From positions 1 to 38,110 of the forward strand of contig NZ_JAPEHT010000016.1 of assembly GCF_028823615.1 (NCBI RefSeq): a stretch of 38,110 nt of DNA, written 5' to 3'. This DNA comes from Planococcus sp. A6. Its GTDB lineage: Bacteria; Bacillota; Bacilli; Bacillales_A; Planococcaceae. Shown here one piece after another: positions 3,078-17,017 of the stretch (position 1 is the first letter of the stretch; each line of letters starts with the position of its first letter). Made by a program: the position numbers and the translations under genes. The notes beneath the pieces are model-generated. The model searched no databases and was not told the DNA's origin. It saw only the letters and a program-made list of their open reading frames with translations.

Positions 3078-3578
3078 ATGAATATCACAGTAACGATCGA
3101 GGCTCCTGAGCTAGTCGGAGCATTAAATAACTTGGCAAACGCATTCGGCAACGCAAACCCACTGGAGGGCGTGCAGATCAACAAGCCGCTGGGAACGCAA
3201 GTACCTGAAGAAACGCCAGCTCCGAAGAAAGAAACACCAAAACCGGAGAAGAAAGCACCGGCTAAGCCAAAAGCAGAACCGAAGCCGGAACCAACTCCTG
3301 AACCTGAACCTGAACCTGAACCTGAACCTGAACCTGAACCTGAACCTGAACCGGAGACAGTCGAACCCGAGCCGGAGTCAACGGAAGAGCCTGAAAGCAC
3401 TCCGAGCATCTCGCTCGATACGCTCACCACCAAGACACGAAAGTTCGTGCAAGGCAATCCGGAGAACCGCAAGAAGCTAAAAGGCTTCCTGGAAGAGATG
3501 GGCGTGCCGAAGATTTCGGAACTGCCGCCGGCTGAGTACGGGGCTGCCATCCACTTCATGGAGACGAACGGCGAATGA
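3078..3578 (+). CDS. Pro-Glu-repeat protein preceding the nuclease
   Basis: 166 residues. The N-terminus (MNITVTIEAPELVGALNNLA) is a short folded segment seen at the head of several Bacillales phage replication operons. It is followed by a K/P/E-rich linker containing ten consecutive Pro-Glu dipeptides (residues about 74-93). A helical C-terminal domain follows from about 115 (LDTLTTKTRKFVQGNPENRK). Two folded ends joined by a stiff acidic rod suggest a tethering or adaptor role, perhaps for the nuclease or SSB; this is inference. The stop overlaps the DUF2800 start (ATGA). Confidence 0.7.
   Translation: MNITVTIEAPELVGALNNLANAFGNANPLEGVQINKPLGTQVPEETPAPKKETPKPEKKAPAKPKAEPKPEPTPEPEPEPEPEPEPEPEPEPETVEPEPESTEEPESTPSISLDTLTTKTRKFVQGNPENRKKLKGFLEEMGVPKISELPPAEYGAAIHFMETNGE
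3297..3350 (+). repeat. CCTGAA hexanucleotide repeat, nine perfect copies
   Basis: Nine uninterrupted CCTGAA units, each encoding Pro-Glu, followed by one CCGGAG variant. The unit is a multiple of three, so copy-number change by slippage would alter linker length without shifting frame. Confidence 0.95.
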
Positions 3579-4738
3579 CGGGCCATGCAGCAAGAGCGCA
3601 CGCCGTTCTCTCTGCGAGTGGATCCAGTCGCTGGTTAGTCTGCACGAAATCCGCAAGCATGGAACGCGGCATACAGGACCGCACCTCAACGTTCGCTGAA
3701 GAAGGCACGTTCGCACATGAACTGTCCGAGCTGTACTTCGCTCAAATGTACCAGGGCATGACGAAGCGCACCTTCAACAGCAAGCTCAAGAAGATGAAGG
3801 AAAACGAATACTACTCAGAAGAACTACTCGGGTACGTTGAAGAGTATGTCGACCTGGTAGCGGAACGCATCAACGGGGCAAAAGCCCGTGATGAGAACGC
3901 CGACTGGATGTTTGAAGAACGGCTCGACCTCTCCGATTATGTGCCAGGCTCGTTCGGTACGGGAGATGTGGTGTTTTACGCAGACGGTGTCGTTGAAATC
4001 ATCGATTTGAAGTTTGGAAAAGGCATTGAAGTCAGCGCAGAAAACAACTCACAGCTTCGGCTGTACGGTCTCGGCGCTCTCGCCATCTTCGACATGATCG
4101 AGGACGTGAGAGAAGTCAGCATGACGATCATCCAGCCGAGACTCGATAACATCTCCACAGAAGTGCTATCCGCTGATGAGCTTCGGAAGTGGGGCACAGA
4201 ATACGTAAAGCCAAGAGCTGAGATGGCGTGGAAAGGCGAGGGCGAGTTCGTGCCTGGTGAACACTGCCGGTTCTGCAAAATCAAAGCGACCTGTAAGGCA
4301 CGAGCTGATAAGCAGCTGAACATGCCAAACAAGCTGAAAGACCCGAACCTTCTAACTCCGGCAGAGATTGCCGACATCCTCTTCCAAGCCGATGAGCTGA
4401 AGAAGTGGGCCGGCGATGTGCAAGACTTCGCACTGGAGAAAGCGCAGAACGGAGTGGAGTTCGAAGGATTCAAGGTGGTCGAGGGAAGAAGCACCCGGAA
4501 ATATGCGGATGAAGATAAAGCGTTCGACATGCTGAAAGGCGCATACAAGCCGGAAGTGCTGCTGGAGACGAAACTGCTGTCTATCTCGAAACTGGAGAAG
4601 GTCATTGGCAAGAAGACGCTCACCGATAAGCTTGGCGAGTTGATCATCAAGCCACCAGGCAAACCGACACTGGTTCCTGAATCGGACAAAAGACCGGCGA
4701 TGGGTGCGGAATCAGATTTTGATGTAATTACAGAATAG
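3575..4738 (+). CDS. DUF2800 family RecB-like exonuclease
   Basis: 387 residues. Probable PD-(D/E)XK nuclease with an iron-sulfur cluster, related to AddB/Cas4/RecB nucleases, used in phage recombination or replication. The DUF2800 signature is clear: N-terminal RWLVC (C23), FGTGDVVFYADG then EIIDLKFGKG (D144, K146 catalytic), QLRLYGLGAL, and the C-terminal cluster HCRFCKIKATC (C231, C234, C240). C23 plus these three would bind 4Fe-4S as in AddB. ATG 3575 overlaps the previous stop. The DUF2815 SSB two genes downstream is its usual partner, resembling an exonuclease/annealing pair. Function follows from fold; no substrate is shown. Confidence 0.85.
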   Translation: MTGHAARAHAVLSASGSSRWLVCTKSASMERGIQDRTSTFAEEGTFAHELSELYFAQMYQGMTKRTFNSKLKKMKENEYYSEELLGYVEEYVDLVAERINGAKARDENADWMFEERLDLSDYVPGSFGTGDVVFYADGVVEIIDLKFGKGIEVSAENNSQLRLYGLGALAIFDMIEDVREVSMTIIQPRLDNISTEVLSADELRKWGTEYVKPRAEMAWKGEGEFVPGEHCRFCKIKATCKARADKQLNMPNKLKDPNLLTPAEIADILFQADELKKWAGDVQDFALEKAQNGVEFEGFKVVEGRSTRKYADEDKAFDMLKGAYKPEVLLETKLLSISKLEKVIGKKTLTDKLGELIIKPPGKPTLVPESDKRPAMGAESDFDVITE

Positions 4739-5726: not shown

Positions 5727-6254
5727 ATGGAAAACGAAATTTGGAAAGACATTCCCGACCACTCGGGATACCAAGTGAGCAATAAAGGAAACGTCCGAAG
5801 CGTTGACCGTTACAAGGATGTCTACACAAGAGGAAAGCTTCAGCGCAGACTTTACCGAGGCAGGCTGTTAAAACCTGCTGCGTATTGCAAGACTGGCCAT
5901 CTGTCACTGCCATTAGGCAGAGGGTGCAATGGTATACCCGTTCATCAGTTAGTCTTATCGGCTTTCGAAGGTCCTTGCCCAGAAGGCATGGAAGTGCTGC
6001 ATAAAAACGGAATATCGACCGACAACCGATTCGAAAACCTCCGGTACGGATCGAGAACCGAGAATATCCTAGACACCTACACTGATGGCGGATCTTGGCG
6101 AAAGCTCACTACTAATGAAGTTCATCAGATCCGGGATTTAAGAGCGTTTGGATTCCGGCTTACAGAAATAGCAGAGTGGTACTCAATTTCAGCTGCTACA
6201 GTTTCAAGCATCTACCTAAGGAGGTCGTTCTCATGGTTACCTACCTCTCCATAG
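5727..6254 (+). CDS. NUMOD4/HNH homing endonuclease
   Basis: 175 residues. NUMOD4 DNA-binding motif at about 5-27 (EIWKDIPDHSGYQVSNKGNV). HNH core around residues 72-112 (VHQLVLSAFEG...MEVLHKNGISTDNRFENL) with the expected His, Asn/Asp and Asn positions. A C-terminal helix-turn-helix follows (EVHQIRDLRAFGFRLTEIAE...). A free-standing mobile endonuclease probably targeting the neighbouring gene in uninfected genomes. It sits between SSB and polymerase, after a terminator. Its last seven codons lie over the polymerase ribosome site and start, so the 3' end was set by the polymerase leader. Confidence 0.85.
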   Translation: MENEIWKDIPDHSGYQVSNKGNVRSVDRYKDVYTRGKLQRRLYRGRLLKPAAYCKTGHLSLPLGRGCNGIPVHQLVLSAFEGPCPEGMEVLHKNGISTDNRFENLRYGSRTENILDTYTDGGSWRKLTTNEVHQIRDLRAFGFRLTEIAEWYSISAATVSSIYLRRSFSWLPTSP

Positions 6255-8242
6255 ATTTGGAAACCTATTGCGAACTGGATCTCCGCGATGTCGGAGTGTA
6301 TCGATACGCAGAACATGAAAGCTTTGAAATCCTCATGCTTGCCTATTCGGTTGAAAATTCATCGGAGACACGGAGTGGAAAGGTCCACATCATCGACTTT
6401 GCTAGTTATGAGTACGACAACTGGGGACGCAACAAGCTCGCAGATCACGAACAGAAGCTGGACGACTTTATGAAGCTACTGATGGACCCGACAGTCGTCA
6501 AGACGGCGCACAATGCCAGCTTTGAACGAACGTGTATGGCTGAATGGTTCAAGACGACGATGCCGCCGGAAGAGTGGCGCTGCACGATGGTCGACTCGAC
6601 ACGGCTCGGACTTCCAGCAGCACTCGGTCAAGTCGCGGAAGTGTTAAGCTTGGACGCGCAGAAGGACAAAACCGGTACCGCATTGATCAACTTCTTCTCG
6701 AAGCCGTGCAAGCCAACCAAAGCAAACAACGGCCGCACACGAAACCTTCCGGAGCATGACCCGGGGAAGTGGCGTCAGTTTCTTGAGTATTGCCGGCAAG
6801 ATGTACTGGTCGAATATCAGATACGCCGGAAAATCGATTCCTTCCCAGTACCAAAGTTCGAACAAGACCTCTGGACACTTGATCAACAGATTAACGACCG
6901 AGGCGTGCAAGTGGATGTGGAGCTGATGGAAGGCGCGGTCGCATGTGACATCGAGGCGAAAGAAAAGGCCGTCGAACGGGCCAGAGAGCTGACAGGGCTT
7001 GAGAATCCGAACAGCCCGACACAGATGCTCGGCTGGCTGCAAGAGCAAGGCGCAGACATTCAGAACATGCAAAAAGCAACTATCGATGCCGCACTTGAAG
7101 AATATACGAGCGGACCCGTTCACGAAGCGCTAAAGCTTCGGCAAGAGCTGTCGAAAAGCTCCATCAAGAAATACAGCAAGATGCAATCCATGGTCTGCAA
7201 CGATCATCGGGTGCGCGGCATCCTCCAGTTCTACGGCGCATCGAAAACGGGCCGGTGGGCAGGACGAGGCGTGCAGGTTCAGAACCTCACGAAAAACAAG
7301 ATGAGCTTATCCCGAGTGACGGATGCCCGGGAGTTGATTAAGCAGCACGATTTTGACGGACTGGATCTCCTCTTCTCGGAAAGCCATCAAGACATTCTCA
7401 GTCAGCTGGTCCGGACGTGCTTTGTCGCAAAGCCGGGTCACAAGTTCGTGGTCAGTGACTTCTCAGCCATCGAGGCGCGCGTCATTGCCTGGTACGCCAA
7501 AGAGAACTGGCGGCTGAACGTATTCTCGACACACGGAAAAATCTACGAAGCTTCGGCTTCTCAAATGTTTAACGTTCCAATAGATGAAATCGGCAAAGGC
7601 TCACCGCTACGGCAAAAAGGGAAAGTCGCTGAATTGGCTTTAGGTTACCAGGGCGGGCCAGGCGCACTTCAAGCCATGGGCGCTCTCGATATGGGACTAG
7701 AGGAAAAAGAGCTCAAGCCGCTGGTCAATGCCTGGAGAAAGGCAAACCCGAACATCGTGAAATTCTGGTACGCCTGTGACGCTGCAGCACTTGAAGCCGT
7801 GAAAGAAGGTTATCCGGTCACGACACACGGCATCACGTTCCGCCGCGATAAGGGATGGCTGGCGATTGATCTACCGAGTGGCCGCAGCCTGATGTACGCA
7901 AAGCCGCACATCGTAGACGGAGCTTTCGGAGATGCAGTAGCGCACTTCGGTTTGAACGCCGCGAACAAATGGGACCGCGTTGAGTCCTACGGCGGCAAAT
8001 GGGTGGAGAACATCGTCCAGGCGACTGCCCGGGACATCCTCGCTGTCAGCATGGTGCGCTTAGAGCGTGCCGGCTACCCGACCGTTATGCATGTACACGA
8101 TGAGGTCGTGTGCGAGGTGCCGGAGACGGAAGAAGACGCGCTGGCGATCGTTGAAGACACGATGGCGCTCCCGATTAGCTGGGCTGAAGGGTTGCCGCTT
8201 GAAGCCGATGGATTTGAAACGAACTTCTATAAAAAGGACTAG
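6233..8242 (+). CDS. Family A (Pol I-type) DNA polymerase with 3'-5' exonuclease
   Basis: 669 residues. Replicates phage DNA. Exo I is YLSIDLETY (D8, E10), Exo II lies in KTAHNASFERT, and Exo III is CRQDVLVEYQ. Motif A is VVSDFSAIEAR (D409), motif B RQKGKVAELALGYQGG (R460, K464), motif C HVHDEVV (D623). All catalytic acids are present. The start is ATG 6233 because AAGGAGG at 6218-6224 is 8 bases upstream; the frame is open back to 6176 but lacks support there. It overlaps the HNH 3' end by 22 bases. Length fits compact phage Pol I without a 5' nuclease. Confidence 0.93.
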   Translation: MVTYLSIDLETYCELDLRDVGVYRYAEHESFEILMLAYSVENSSETRSGKVHIIDFASYEYDNWGRNKLADHEQKLDDFMKLLMDPTVVKTAHNASFERTCMAEWFKTTMPPEEWRCTMVDSTRLGLPAALGQVAEVLSLDAQKDKTGTALINFFSKPCKPTKANNGRTRNLPEHDPGKWRQFLEYCRQDVLVEYQIRRKIDSFPVPKFEQDLWTLDQQINDRGVQVDVELMEGAVACDIEAKEKAVERARELTGLENPNSPTQMLGWLQEQGADIQNMQKATIDAALEEYTSGPVHEALKLRQELSKSSIKKYSKMQSMVCNDHRVRGILQFYGASKTGRWAGRGVQVQNLTKNKMSLSRVTDARELIKQHDFDGLDLLFSESHQDILSQLVRTCFVAKPGHKFVVSDFSAIEARVIAWYAKENWRLNVFSTHGKIYEASASQMFNVPIDEIGKGSPLRQKGKVAELALGYQGGPGALQAMGALDMGLEEKELKPLVNAWRKANPNIVKFWYACDAAALEAVKEGYPVTTHGITFRRDKGWLAIDLPSGRSLMYAKPHIVDGAFGDAVAHFGLNAANKWDRVESYGGKWVENIVQATARDILAVSMVRLERAGYPTVMHVHDEVVCEVPETEEDALAIVEDTMALPISWAEGLPLEADGFETNFYKKD

Positions 8243-14570: not shown

Positions 14571-14885
14571 GCCGAAAACAGGTGTAGGCGAAGTGCATTT
14601 TGGTGTAGGCGGTGTATACCTGCCATAAAATGGGAGTGTAGGCGATGTAGGCGCAATTTATCGTATCGCCTACACCTTACGCCTACACCTCAAACCCTTG
14701 CCTGACATGGGCTGAAAGCTAAGTGTAGGCAATGTTACATTAATTTAAAGGTAAATATTATTTATAAGGATAAGGGGTAGAATTACACACAATACGCGTC
14801 ATATACACCTAATCCCTAATATAGTCTGGAAAACCGAAAAACATGCATACATGCACACACCTCAATTTTGAAAGGAGATTTCCCG
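14571..14885. other. Probable replication origin: iterons plus AT-rich region
   Basis: 315 bases without a gene. Four GTGTAGGC(G) copies start at 14582, 14603, 14636 and 14723 (the last ends GCA); a variant ATGTAGGCG is at 14645. Two inverted copies, CGCCTACAC, are at 14667 and 14680, and a partial GTGTATACC at 14612. The segment 14731-14770 is 34/40 A+T (TTAATTTAAA, AAATATTATTTATAA), fitting an unwinding element. Repeats beside an AT-rich stretch, directly after a primase/helicase gene, are the usual form of an iteron origin. I see no ORF and only weak promoter-like sequence. Confidence 0.7.
14582..14731. repeat. GTGTAGGCG iteron array (5 direct, 2 inverted)
   Basis: Direct 9-mers at 14582-14590, 14603-14611, 14636-14644, 14645-14653 (A in place of the first G) and 14723-14731 (A in place of the last G); inverted 9-mers at 14667-14675 and 14680-14688. 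Copies at 14645 and 14667 can form a 7-bp stem (GTAGGCG/CGCCTAC) with a 13-base loop. Other copies are irregularly spaced. Confidence 0.9.
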
Positions 14886-15182
14886 ATGCGAGAAAGTGAA
14901 GTCGAGAACTACCTGAAACGAAACATTGAACGGACCGGCGGCATGTGTTTGAAATTCGAATCACCTGGATTTTCCGGAGTGCCGGACCGTCTCTGCCTGA
15001 TGCCAAACGGCAAGCACTTCTTTGTCGAACTGAAAGCACCAGGAAAGAAAGTCCGGCCGCTGCAGGCGAAAGTGATTCGGATGATTCGAGAGCTTCAGCA
15101 TCCGGTGCATGTAGCTGACTCGAAAGAAGAAGTGGATCTGTTGATTGCCAAATGGGTGACGGGATGTGGCGAAGATGCCTAA
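14886..15182 (+). CDS. VRR-NUC domain nuclease
   Basis: 98 residues. PD-(D/E)XK-fold nuclease of the VRR-NUC type, often beside SNF2 helicases in phages and thought to process DNA junctions or flaps. Conserved elements: MRESEVENYLKRNI (E near the N-terminus), FSGVPDRLCLMPNGKHFFVE (catalytic PD ... E) and LKAPGKKVRPLQ (K after E). ATG 14886 has AAAGGAG 8 bases upstream. The 3' end overlaps the following HNH gene by 8 bases. The SNF2 gene that usually follows directly is here separated by the HNH gene. Confidence 0.88.
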   Translation: MRESEVENYLKRNIERTGGMCLKFESPGFSGVPDRLCLMPNGKHFFVELKAPGKKVRPLQAKVIRMIRELQHPVHVADSKEEVDLLIAKWVTGCGEDA

Positions 15183-15639
15183 ACGTAAATATGATCGAAC
15201 ACGAACCTGCAGCCGCTGCGGAAAAACGTTTGAGGGTTATCCAGGGAAACCGAGAGGCGAAAGAACATTCTGCACTAAAGAGTGCCGATTAACCCAAATG
15301 AGCGAAGACAACCTTTTGAAACGAGTCAATCAGAAAGGTGGACTCACGGAAGAAGAGAAAACTAAAATACGTGAAGCACAAATCAACCGATGGCAGAAAG
15401 AAGACAGACCTTTGTCGCCGGACACTTACCGAAAGGTGCACGGAAGACACGAGCACCGAGTCGTAATGGAGCGTATTATTGGCAGACCGCTAAGCGCAGA
15501 AGAGGTCGTCCACCATATAGACAGTAATAAGCACAATAATGAACCGGAGAACCTGATGCTTTTTGCGAATCAAGCAGAGCATTTAAACTGGCACCGGAAA
15601 TTTGATCCGAGATACGGAGGTGGTTTATCCCATGACTGA
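15175..15639 (+). CDS. HNH endonuclease with zinc ribbon
   Basis: 154 residues. N-terminal Cys4 ribbon (C12-x2-C15 ... C33-x3-C37), a helical linker (TEEEKTKIREAQINRW), then an HNH_3-like core with H92/H94 in HGRHEHRVVMER, H113-H114 in VVHHIDSNKHNNEPENL and N126. A free-standing homing-type endonuclease. It lies exactly between the VRR-NUC and SNF2 genes, which are usually adjacent, and its stop overlaps the SNF2 start by 8 bases. ATG 15175 is preferred; GTG 15166 is possible and neither has a strong ribosome site. The SNF2 gene carries a 6-base insertion 86 bases downstream, possibly linked to target protection. Confidence 0.85.
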   Translation: MPKRKYDRTRTCSRCGKTFEGYPGKPRGERTFCTKECRLTQMSEDNLLKRVNQKGGLTEEEKTKIREAQINRWQKEDRPLSPDTYRKVHGRHEHRVVMERIIGRPLSAEEVVHHIDSNKHNNEPENLMLFANQAEHLNWHRKFDPRYGGGLSHD

Positions 15640-17017
15640 ATTCATTCCACATGCATACCAAACATATGCGATCGAGAAGATTAAAAATAATGCTTCTTAC
15701 GGACTGCTTCTAGACATGGGTCTGTAGCTGGGCAAAACAGTTGCAACCCTAACAGCAATTCAAGATTTAATGTTTGATGATCTGGCGATTGAAAAGGTGC
15801 TGGTGATCGCACCGAAGCGAGTGGCTGAAGATACCTGGAGCCGCGAAGTATTCAAGTGGGAGCACACCAAGCATCTCCGTATATCGAAAGTGCTGGGCCC
15901 GGAGAAGAACCGGCGCCAGGCACTGATGCAAGAAGCTGACATCTACGTCATCAACCGCGAGAACGTGGAGTGGCTAGTGGAGTTCTACCAAGACAAGAAA
16001 ATGCCATTCGATATGTTGGTGGTGGATGAGCTATCGAGCTTCAAGTCGCCAAAGTCGAACCGGTTTAAGGCACTGCGGAAAATACGGCCAGCCTTTAAAC
16101 GGTTTGTCGGATTGACAGGCACGCCGGCGCCGAACTCACTTCTTGACCTTTGGAGCCAAATTTATCTAATTGATCAGGGCGAAAGACTTGGCCGAACCGT
16201 TACGCATTACCGGAACCGCTACTTCTATCCTGCTTCAACGGATCCAAGCAATGCCCGAATCGTGTACAAGTACGAACCGAAGCCAGAAGCTGAGAAGAAC
16301 ATCTACGGCTTGATCGATGACATCTGCGTCTCGATGAAAGCGAAAGACTACCTGCAGCTTCCGGATCGCATCGATAACACGGTGACTGTGGAAATGACAG
16401 CGAAGGAACGGACCGAATACGAACGGCTGGAACGTGACCGGATCCTTGAATATATGGACGGCGATATCGTCGCCTTAACGGCTGCAAGTTTGAGCCAGAA
16501 ACTGCTTCAGCTTTCAAACGGTGCCAGCTATAACGAGAACCAAGGCGTCCAAAAGATTCACGACCAAAAGCTGAAAGCCTTGGAAGAGATTGTGGAAGAA
16601 GCGCAAGGCCAGCCAATCCTTGTCTTCTACAGTTTCATTCACGATAAGGAACGGATCCTGAAGAAGTTCAAGCAGGCTGTCAGCATCGATGAAGACAAAT
16701 CGATTGAGCGCTGGAACTCTGGAAAGATTGAAATCTTACTGGCACATCCGGCATCAGCTGGGCACGGGCTAAACCTGCAGGACGGAGGGCATATCATCGT
16801 ATGGTTCGGGCTTACCTGGTCATTGGAGCTATACCAGCAAGCGAACGCAAGACTGCACAGGCAAGGCCAGGAACAGAGCGTGATGATTCATCATATCCTG
16901 ACCGAGAACACCATCGACCAGCGCGTGCTGCAGGTGCTGCAAGGAAAAGAAAAAGGGCAAGATGCTTTGCTTGATGCCGTGAAGGCACGAGTCGAAGAAG
17001 TACAAAGGGGGTCCTGA
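15632..17017 (+). pseudogene. SNF2-type DEAD/DEAH helicase interrupted by TAG in the P-loop (pseudogene or translational bypass)
   Basis: In-frame from ATG 15632 (ribosome site GGAGG 15616-15620): 461 codons with a single TAG at 15725-15727. Motif I reads DMGL-stop-LGKT where the family has DMGLGKT. Everything after is intact: Ia VLVIAPKRVAEDTW, II VVDELSSFKS, III FVGLTGTPAPN, V AHPASAGHGLNLQDGG, VI QQANARLHRQGQ. It normally acts with VRR-NUC nuclease as a DNA translocase. Downstream internal starts (e.g. ATG 15770) would lack Walker A and be inactive. Removing TAGCTG, or a CUG-to-CUG hop, restores a 459-residue protein with a perfect motif. No other mutation has accumulated, so it is either a very recent pseudogene or still expressed. 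Confidence 0.85.
15722..15730 (+). other. Candidate stop-hopping site CTG-TAG-CTG
   Basis: Codon 31 CTG (Leu), codon 32 TAG, codon 33 CTG (Leu), then GGC AAA ACA (GKT). A peptidyl-tRNA(Leu) moving six bases from CUG to CUG over UAG would yield DMGLGKT. T4 gene 60 likewise has matched take-off and landing codons with a stop right after take-off. No stimulatory structure is obvious by eye. Function is inferred. Confidence 0.4.

Follow-up and report, generated by a model that had tools for sequence, protein, structure and literature searches.

In gene 60 of phage T4, ribosomes bypass a gap of 50 nt, for which protection from a nuclease has been suggested as a role, and in the current model a 5′ stem-loop works as a motor that pulls the mRNA (PMC5009743). 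In the parts of the two reviews cited here, bypassing appears unique to gene 60, from T4-related phages (2010; PMC3014915), and natural in-frame stop hopping is without known occurrences (2016; PMC5009743). Synthetic stop-hops were described in Escherichia coli by Weiss et al. in 1987, with nine bases in which a stop lies between matched codons and which yield one amino acid, and the mitochondria of Magnusiomyces capitatus have 81 bypass sites, short inserts skipped by ribosomes at which imperfect codon matches are tolerated (PMC5009743). The element described here is CTG-TAG-CTG, nine bases inside motif I of an SNF2 helicase gene. It is located in a tailed-phage stretch that makes up the whole of a 38,110-nt window within a bacterial genome assembly (Planococcus sp. 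A6, contig NZ_JAPEHT010000016.1, positions 1 to 38,110 of the forward strand). Judged from sequence, the element would be a natural minimal programmed bypass, a "stop-hop", kept as protection from a homing HNH enzyme, and we put the probability of this reading at roughly 0.7.

The design is best read as a small-scale version of T4 gene 60 with mobA. The features in common with the T4 pair, as far as the cited parts of the reviews describe it, are one protein in two parts, a gap beginning with a stop, matched codons, an HNH gene upstream, a 5′ stem-loop (here a possible one, at group level only) and a proposed protection from a nuclease (PMC5009743, PMC3014915). Unlike in T4 gene 60, the gap measures 1–7 nt instead of 50, the target is motif I of a helicase present in many phages and prophages, both parts share one frame in the six-nt class, and the codons are mostly for Leu and not the Gly codon GGA. 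The synthetic E. coli stop-hops likewise consist of nine bases, a stop flanked by matched codons; the present ones are natural and recurrent. Short inserts and imperfect codon matches are shared with the Magnusiomyces capitatus elements, here at one fixed site of a phage gene versus 81 in a single, relaxed mitochondrial system. Another phage gene with a proposed short bypass is tied to UUA decoding and involves neither a stop codon nor a homing endonuclease.

What sets these elements apart from T4 is the size of the gap, the form in which both parts share a frame, the gene that is targeted, the recurrence, and the existence of close relatives with and without the gap. Among the matches listed for open-licence papers, judged by title or the start of the abstract, there was no earlier report of the helicase interruption. 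If the proposed reading is true, these elements form the first natural class of in-frame stop-hops, and T4 gene 60 becomes one case of a general arms race, not a curiosity. The 41 interrupted genes collected here, with gaps of 1–7 nt and close gap-free relatives, provide comparative data on the way in which ribosomes depart from a frame and find it again, along with an explanation of the gap that can be tested. Gene-finding programs probably place the start of such genes at an internal codon, so that the 5′ part is missed.

An interrupted motif I in the window helicase

The helicase frame runs on the forward strand from the ATG at 15632 to the stop at 17015–17017 and contains a single internal stop, with motif I reading DMGL-stop-LGKT. 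CTG-TAG-CTG occupies positions 15722–15730, between GAC ATG GGT and GGC AAA ACA, exactly where the original prediction had placed it; that prediction had also described the frame as open from 15632 to 17017 save one TAG, without further decay of the 3′ part, which agrees with the one internal stop found. The 5′ segment counts 31 codons up to DMGL (15632–15724), and related 5′ segments are present in other interrupted genes. Its last codon, CTG (Leu, 15722–15724), is the putative take-off codon, which is followed by the in-frame TAG (15725–15727; TAG, TGA or TAA in relatives) and by the putative landing codon, again CTG (Leu, 15728–15730; CTN in 21 of the 23 six-nt cases). The 3′ segment extends from GKT onwards (15731–17017). 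The longest start-to-stop frame within it starts at ATG 15770, and the piece 15770–17014 matches SNF2-rel_dom (PF00176, E 2.6e-17), Helicase_C (PF00271, E 5.6e-8) and phrog_62 (E 8.9e-159). Together, the two coding parts across the gap make up one conserved SNF2 helicase. A loose pattern allowing up to three mismatches matched three places in the same genome, and this motif is found only at the one in the window.

In the proposed mechanism, a ribosome whose P site holds Leu-tRNA paired with CUG would reach the UAG, which would be decoded slowly. The peptidyl-tRNA would let go and re-pair on the CUG six bases downstream, and translation would restart at GGC, resulting in a single helicase chain with the conserved motif I. 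In hairpin-bearing relatives, closing of the 5′ stem at its base while the mRNA exits the ribosome could draw the transcript along by a few bases, and the hairpin might in this way act as a motor like the one in T4 gene 60. Most likely, the gap serves to shield the motif-I DNA from an HNH enzyme. The interruption would be kept because this DNA is the proposed target of an HNH-family homing endonuclease; an interrupted motif would give the phage immunity and let it carry the enzyme gene, and HNH gene, helicase 5′ end and gap could spread jointly by homing. We infer the hop itself, the cleavage at motif I and the immunity from the comparisons given below. The broader proposal, in which motif I would be a recurrent homing target that phages repeatedly escape by breaks of 1–7 nt, with a stop nearly always in the A site, while ribosomes hop or slip that distance, often aided by a hairpin, has in our view somewhat better than even chances.

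Recurrence among relatives

A search with the 3′ piece of the window helicase revealed relatives interrupted at the identical spot, alongside relatives with an uninterrupted motif. L008 (L numbers are our locus handles), an 84% identical relative, has the same interruption as CTT TAG CTT, L006, a prophage of Enterococcus timonensis, has CTT TAA CTG at motif I, and L017 has CTT TGA CTA. An IMG/VR scan for DMG, Leu/Phe, stop or Trp, Leu/Phe and GKT gave 14 contigs, all of them SNF2-type helicases with a true stop. With the middle codon left free, 15 stretches were obtained; 14 are SNF2-type helicases, each with a stop at this position, and the 15th is an unrelated protein. Wider patterns added the six-nt form in a second helicase type, with an ADEMGL motif, and a seven-nt form. 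The uninterrupted L005, used as a query against 398 genomes of the class and 398 of the phylum, led to forms of five, four and one nt at this position. Similarity to helicase pieces kept 34 of 120 candidate rows, from which L227 (TGG, in a different protein context) was then removed; chance pattern matches set aside include L035, L041, L044 and L067.

The final table holds 111 helicases, 41 interrupted and 70 uninterrupted, with L399, which lies at a contig end, left out. All interruptions are at motif I and comprise 23 of six nt, at least nine of seven, at least six of five, at least one of four and at least two of one, the counts for lengths other than six nt being lower bounds. L369 was counted as uninterrupted; at about position 1590 its motif I reads DMGMRKT, a substitution of a conserved Gly that leaves the frame unchanged, with the rest of the helicase open. 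In the 33 IMG/VR and window cases, the open 3′ part spans at least 267 codons, the shortest extending to the end of its locus, and eight further genome cases have stop-to-stop frames of at least 428 codons. In a quick tree, interruption changes state at least 20 times, gain and loss being indistinguishable. The original prediction had pointed to homologous prophages as the place to look for recurring stops flanked by matched codons, and these were found in L008, in the IMG/VR helicases and in further genomes; with 41 of 111 helicases interrupted there, the element is not confined to one strain. A sequencing error was rejected as an explanation, as similar interruptions occur in independent contigs and genomes.

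Among 46 genomes of the genus, helicase DNA was present only in that of the window itself. The six-nt pattern was found in one of 261 genomes of the order (the window) and in two of 398 genomes of the class (the window and the chance match L207). The set of genome matches contained 75 distinct ones, of which 66 were counted and the remaining nine were unfetched, cut or identical; nine of the 66 are interrupted, a proportion that gives no rate because the extra fetches favoured alignments starting near motif I. Motif I is uninterrupted in the three named phages fetched among the matches (SBK1, phiFL4A and phiCDKH02), and megablast with L032 and L029 gave no named record. In Staphylococcus phage vB_Sau_SBK1 (L322, 1576–2846), the helicase is annotated as two genes, with the break further downstream of the uninterrupted motif. 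One stop was also flagged inside each of the genome-search matches L333, L379, L391 and L392, which have an uninterrupted motif I.

Codons at the gap

The codon rules rest on two scans with free codons, the one with a free middle codon and one in which both take-off and landing were free, since most of the pattern scans required Leu/Phe codons together with a stop or Trp. In the latter (DMG type, six nt), the take-off codon is Leu in 17/17 helicase rows, window included, and the landing codon in 15/17. In the 32 cases of six and seven nt, take-off is always at a Leu codon (CTT 21, CTG 7, CTA 2, CTC 1, TTA 1); 30 of them also land within the same Leu family, the others on CCN (L083, L103). The six-nt class consists of ten exact matches, 11 pairs of CTN with another CTN and the two CCN cases. 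The identical Leu codons emphasized in the original prediction are present in the window, as CTG/CTG, and are not a requirement in the class, with an exact match in 10 of 23. The seven-nt class has TGA in 9/9 of the cases found and goes from CTN to CTN or, in L157, from TTA to TTA; five of the nine are exact matches and the rest remain within the Leu family. A stop directly follows the take-off codon in 33/33 Leu-type cases, though most scans required a stop there. TAG, TGA and TAA all occur across the relatives.

In the five-nt class, five of six members read MGLG-stop upstream, with GGT preceding TAG or TGA, and a Gly-tRNA could therefore shift from GGT to GGN (AGC in L389). The one-nt form L367 has GGG followed by TAA, and a one-base slip would place the tRNA on GGT. 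A +1 shift like the one in prfB could serve the seven-nt class with its constant TGA (9/9) and would leave two extra residues in the motif; it was rejected, as it cannot serve the five- and six-nt classes.

The HNH neighbour and a diverged tract

In the window, the end of a free-standing HNH_3 endonuclease gene (15166–15639, forward strand; PF13392, E 2.7e-9) overlaps the helicase start. A related HNH gene is located directly 5′, on the same strand, in 13/41 interrupted helicases versus 2/70 uninterrupted ones (Fisher 3e-5, uncorrected for kinship). In the genome set, which was not chosen by the presence of a gap, the HNH gene is upstream of 4/9 interrupted versus 2/57 uninterrupted helicases (p 0.0023). 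This neighbour occurs across the one-, five-, six- and seven-nt classes, and a Pfam scan of eight of the 13 detected HNH_3 in all eight. On the quick tree, HNH presence changes 14 times, again with gain and loss indistinguishable. Some loci are short upstream, like L103 (about 290 nt) and L022 (about 404 nt), and HNH genes may be overlooked at these because there is little upstream DNA. In L046, three further, weaker HNH-like matches flank the helicase, besides the direct upstream one.

Around the gap, relatives that have it and relatives that lack it share about 94–97% identity, with the exception of ~115 nt that end there. L017 has both the HNH gene and the gap, and L027 has the same gap and no HNH gene; both features are absent from their near relatives L009, L010 and Enterococcus phage phiFL4A (L323). 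Between the HNH insertion point and the gap, limits chosen after viewing the identity profile, L017 and phiFL4A are identical at 93/115 positions, versus 286/305 just upstream and 1211/1250 downstream (tract versus each, p 2e-4 and 5e-10), and L017 and L027 share 116/123 within the tract. A weaker form is visible between L020 and L019, with 60/87 in the tract versus 1037/1250 downstream (p 0.002). A break at motif I followed by co-conversion would be expected to produce a tract of this kind, with the 3′ edge coinciding with the gap. For the window itself, no close uninterrupted relative was found for this comparison.

RNA structure 5′ of the gap

Against dinucleotide shuffles, folding of the 5′ stretch has a mean z of -1.64 in interrupted genes (n=41) and -0.07 in uninterrupted ones (n=70; p printed as 0.000), and on the 3′ side the two groups are alike (p 0.44). 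With synonymous-codon draws and genes aligned at the Met-Gly codons, p<0.05 is reached by 17/41 interrupted versus 1/70 uninterrupted genes; the laxer threshold of z<-1 includes 23/41 versus 16/70. In the ADEMGL type, CCCATCT or a similar stretch pairs with AGATGGG, forming stems of up to 18 pairs beside the take-off codon (L056, L321). In one DMGL group, the codons for HPYQ pair with those for DMG, and this 15-pair helix is complete in 7/8 members of a set chosen for showing it. Three of its pairs change on both sides, nine are invariant and hence uninformative, and no shuffle out of 500 attained the helix's covariation score of 0.238. In the same register, uninterrupted genes have 9.5 pairs on average, at least 12 in 9/70 and 11–12 in the nearest relatives, because the protein code itself favours part of the pairing.

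The window has a weak possible hairpin over the take-off codon and the stop (15697–15727, forward strand), in which 15697–15705 pairs with 15719–15727 with three G-U pairs; it is not robust. A known RNA element or intron was rejected, as no Rfam family reached its gathering score in the window. The bypass first proposed from the window alone has gained support, of a comparative kind only, and the HNH gene, the diverged tract, the 5′ hairpins of the group and the other gap lengths had been overlooked in the original prediction.

Weighing the proposed bypass

Several observations weigh against a protective bypass. The landing codon is mismatched in L083, L103, L321 (CTT TGA CC) and L389 (AGC), and re-pairing would therefore be favoured, yet not strict; in L368, of the one-nt class, no stop follows the take-off codon and the A site has the sense codon CGG. 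The RNA of the window is without a significant hairpin (synonymous-codon p 0.536), and a longer stretch folds otherwise (z -1.02). Two of the five measures of the DMGL-group helix lie within the shuffles (both-side changes 121/500, pair types 234/500), and over independent tree pairs the link between hairpin and interruption is not significant (median p 0.5). The tract limits are post hoc, and from about 420 nt upstream of the motif outwards the divergence of L017 and L027 from phiFL4A is continuous, which makes ordinary phage mosaicism an alternative explanation of the tract. Over 11 independent tree pairs, the HNH gene is associated with the interruption in a mean of 3.9 and shows the opposite pattern in a mean of 0.2 (median p 0.125), so the kinship-corrected link is suggestive only. 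Neither an HNH gene nor a significant hairpin is present in 14/41 interrupted genes, and the HNH-bearing L391 and L398 have an uninterrupted motif.

A post hoc remark concerns these last two loci, which read DCGL (L391, about 3088–3105; L398, reverse strand, about 3581–3600) where most have DMGL. This is perhaps another way to alter the target DNA.

The alternative that survives best is a bypass that is real and regulatory, giving a low or conditional supply of helicase, with the HNH gene as an incidental neighbour. The 14 genes with neither feature and the non-significant kinship-corrected test fit it, and so does the second free-standing HNH gene of the window, which precedes an uninterrupted DNA polymerase gene. 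A regulatory stop could be anywhere, yet the interruptions found are at motif I; the pattern scans covered motif I only, and in four helicases a stop at another place was flagged by the unrestricted genome searches. The motif is also where the diverged tract ends, and the HNH gene accompanies 13/41 interrupted versus 2/70 uninterrupted genes. On balance, we regard a purely regulatory role as unlikely.

Inactivation, which the original prediction kept as the main alternative, would have the stop kill a dispensable helicase, perhaps as a cheap resistance to the endonuclease, with no full-length product. Motif I is essential for such ATPases, which counts in its favour. Codon changes bear on this explanation; they were counted in 20 ungapped pairwise comparisons between interrupted genes, uncorrected for numbers of sites. 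More changes are synonymous than non-synonymous in 12/20 pairs over the 26 codons before the gap (one tie), in 18/20 over the 13 codons after it (two ties) and in 9/20 over the next 100 codons. In L006/L017, the numbers are 10 versus 3 before the gap, 8 versus 1 after it and 42 versus 19 in the next 100 codons; the distant ADEMGL-type pairs fail in that last stretch (L056/L057, 1 versus 96). Simple inactivation is disfavoured because both sides are open in the 41 interrupted genes and synonymous changes prevail directly after the gap. In addition, no helicase of the free-codon scan has a sense codon replacing the stop, and some hairpin pairs change on both sides. We hold it for improbable, more so than the regulatory bypass.

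Readthrough, with an amino acid inserted at the stop, draws on the weak termination contexts UAG C and UGA C and on the frame kept by the six-nt class; it is very improbable, because TAG, TGA and TAA all occur and the gaps of 1, 4, 5 and 7 nt change the frame, and no sense residue stands at the stop position in the helicases of the free-codon scan. A search for tRNA genes found none in the window, and a suppressor tRNA encoded there was rejected. A split protein, with a second chain from an internal start such as the ATG at 15770, where the longest 3′ start-to-stop frame begins, is just as improbable, as GKT and the next codons would be untranslated, yet most changes in the 13 codons that follow the gap are synonymous (18/20 pairs), and the landing codons CTT, CTA and CTC would be unusual starts.

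Other genes of the window

Besides the SNF2 helicase and HNH endonuclease, the window encodes an exonuclease, a single-strand binding protein, a DNA polymerase, a VapE-type primase/helicase and a VRR-NUC nuclease, as well as terminase, portal, head and tail genes and an amidase. The VRR-NUC gene (14868–15182, forward strand; PF08774, E 4.3e-7; phrog_93, E 5.2e-31) is the 5′ neighbour of the HNH gene and helicase. The second free-standing HNH gene (5727–6254) overlaps the start of the DNA polymerase frame (6176–8242), the same layout as that of the HNH gene and the helicase. This polymerase is uninterrupted, and Staphylococcus phage relatives cover 97% of it.
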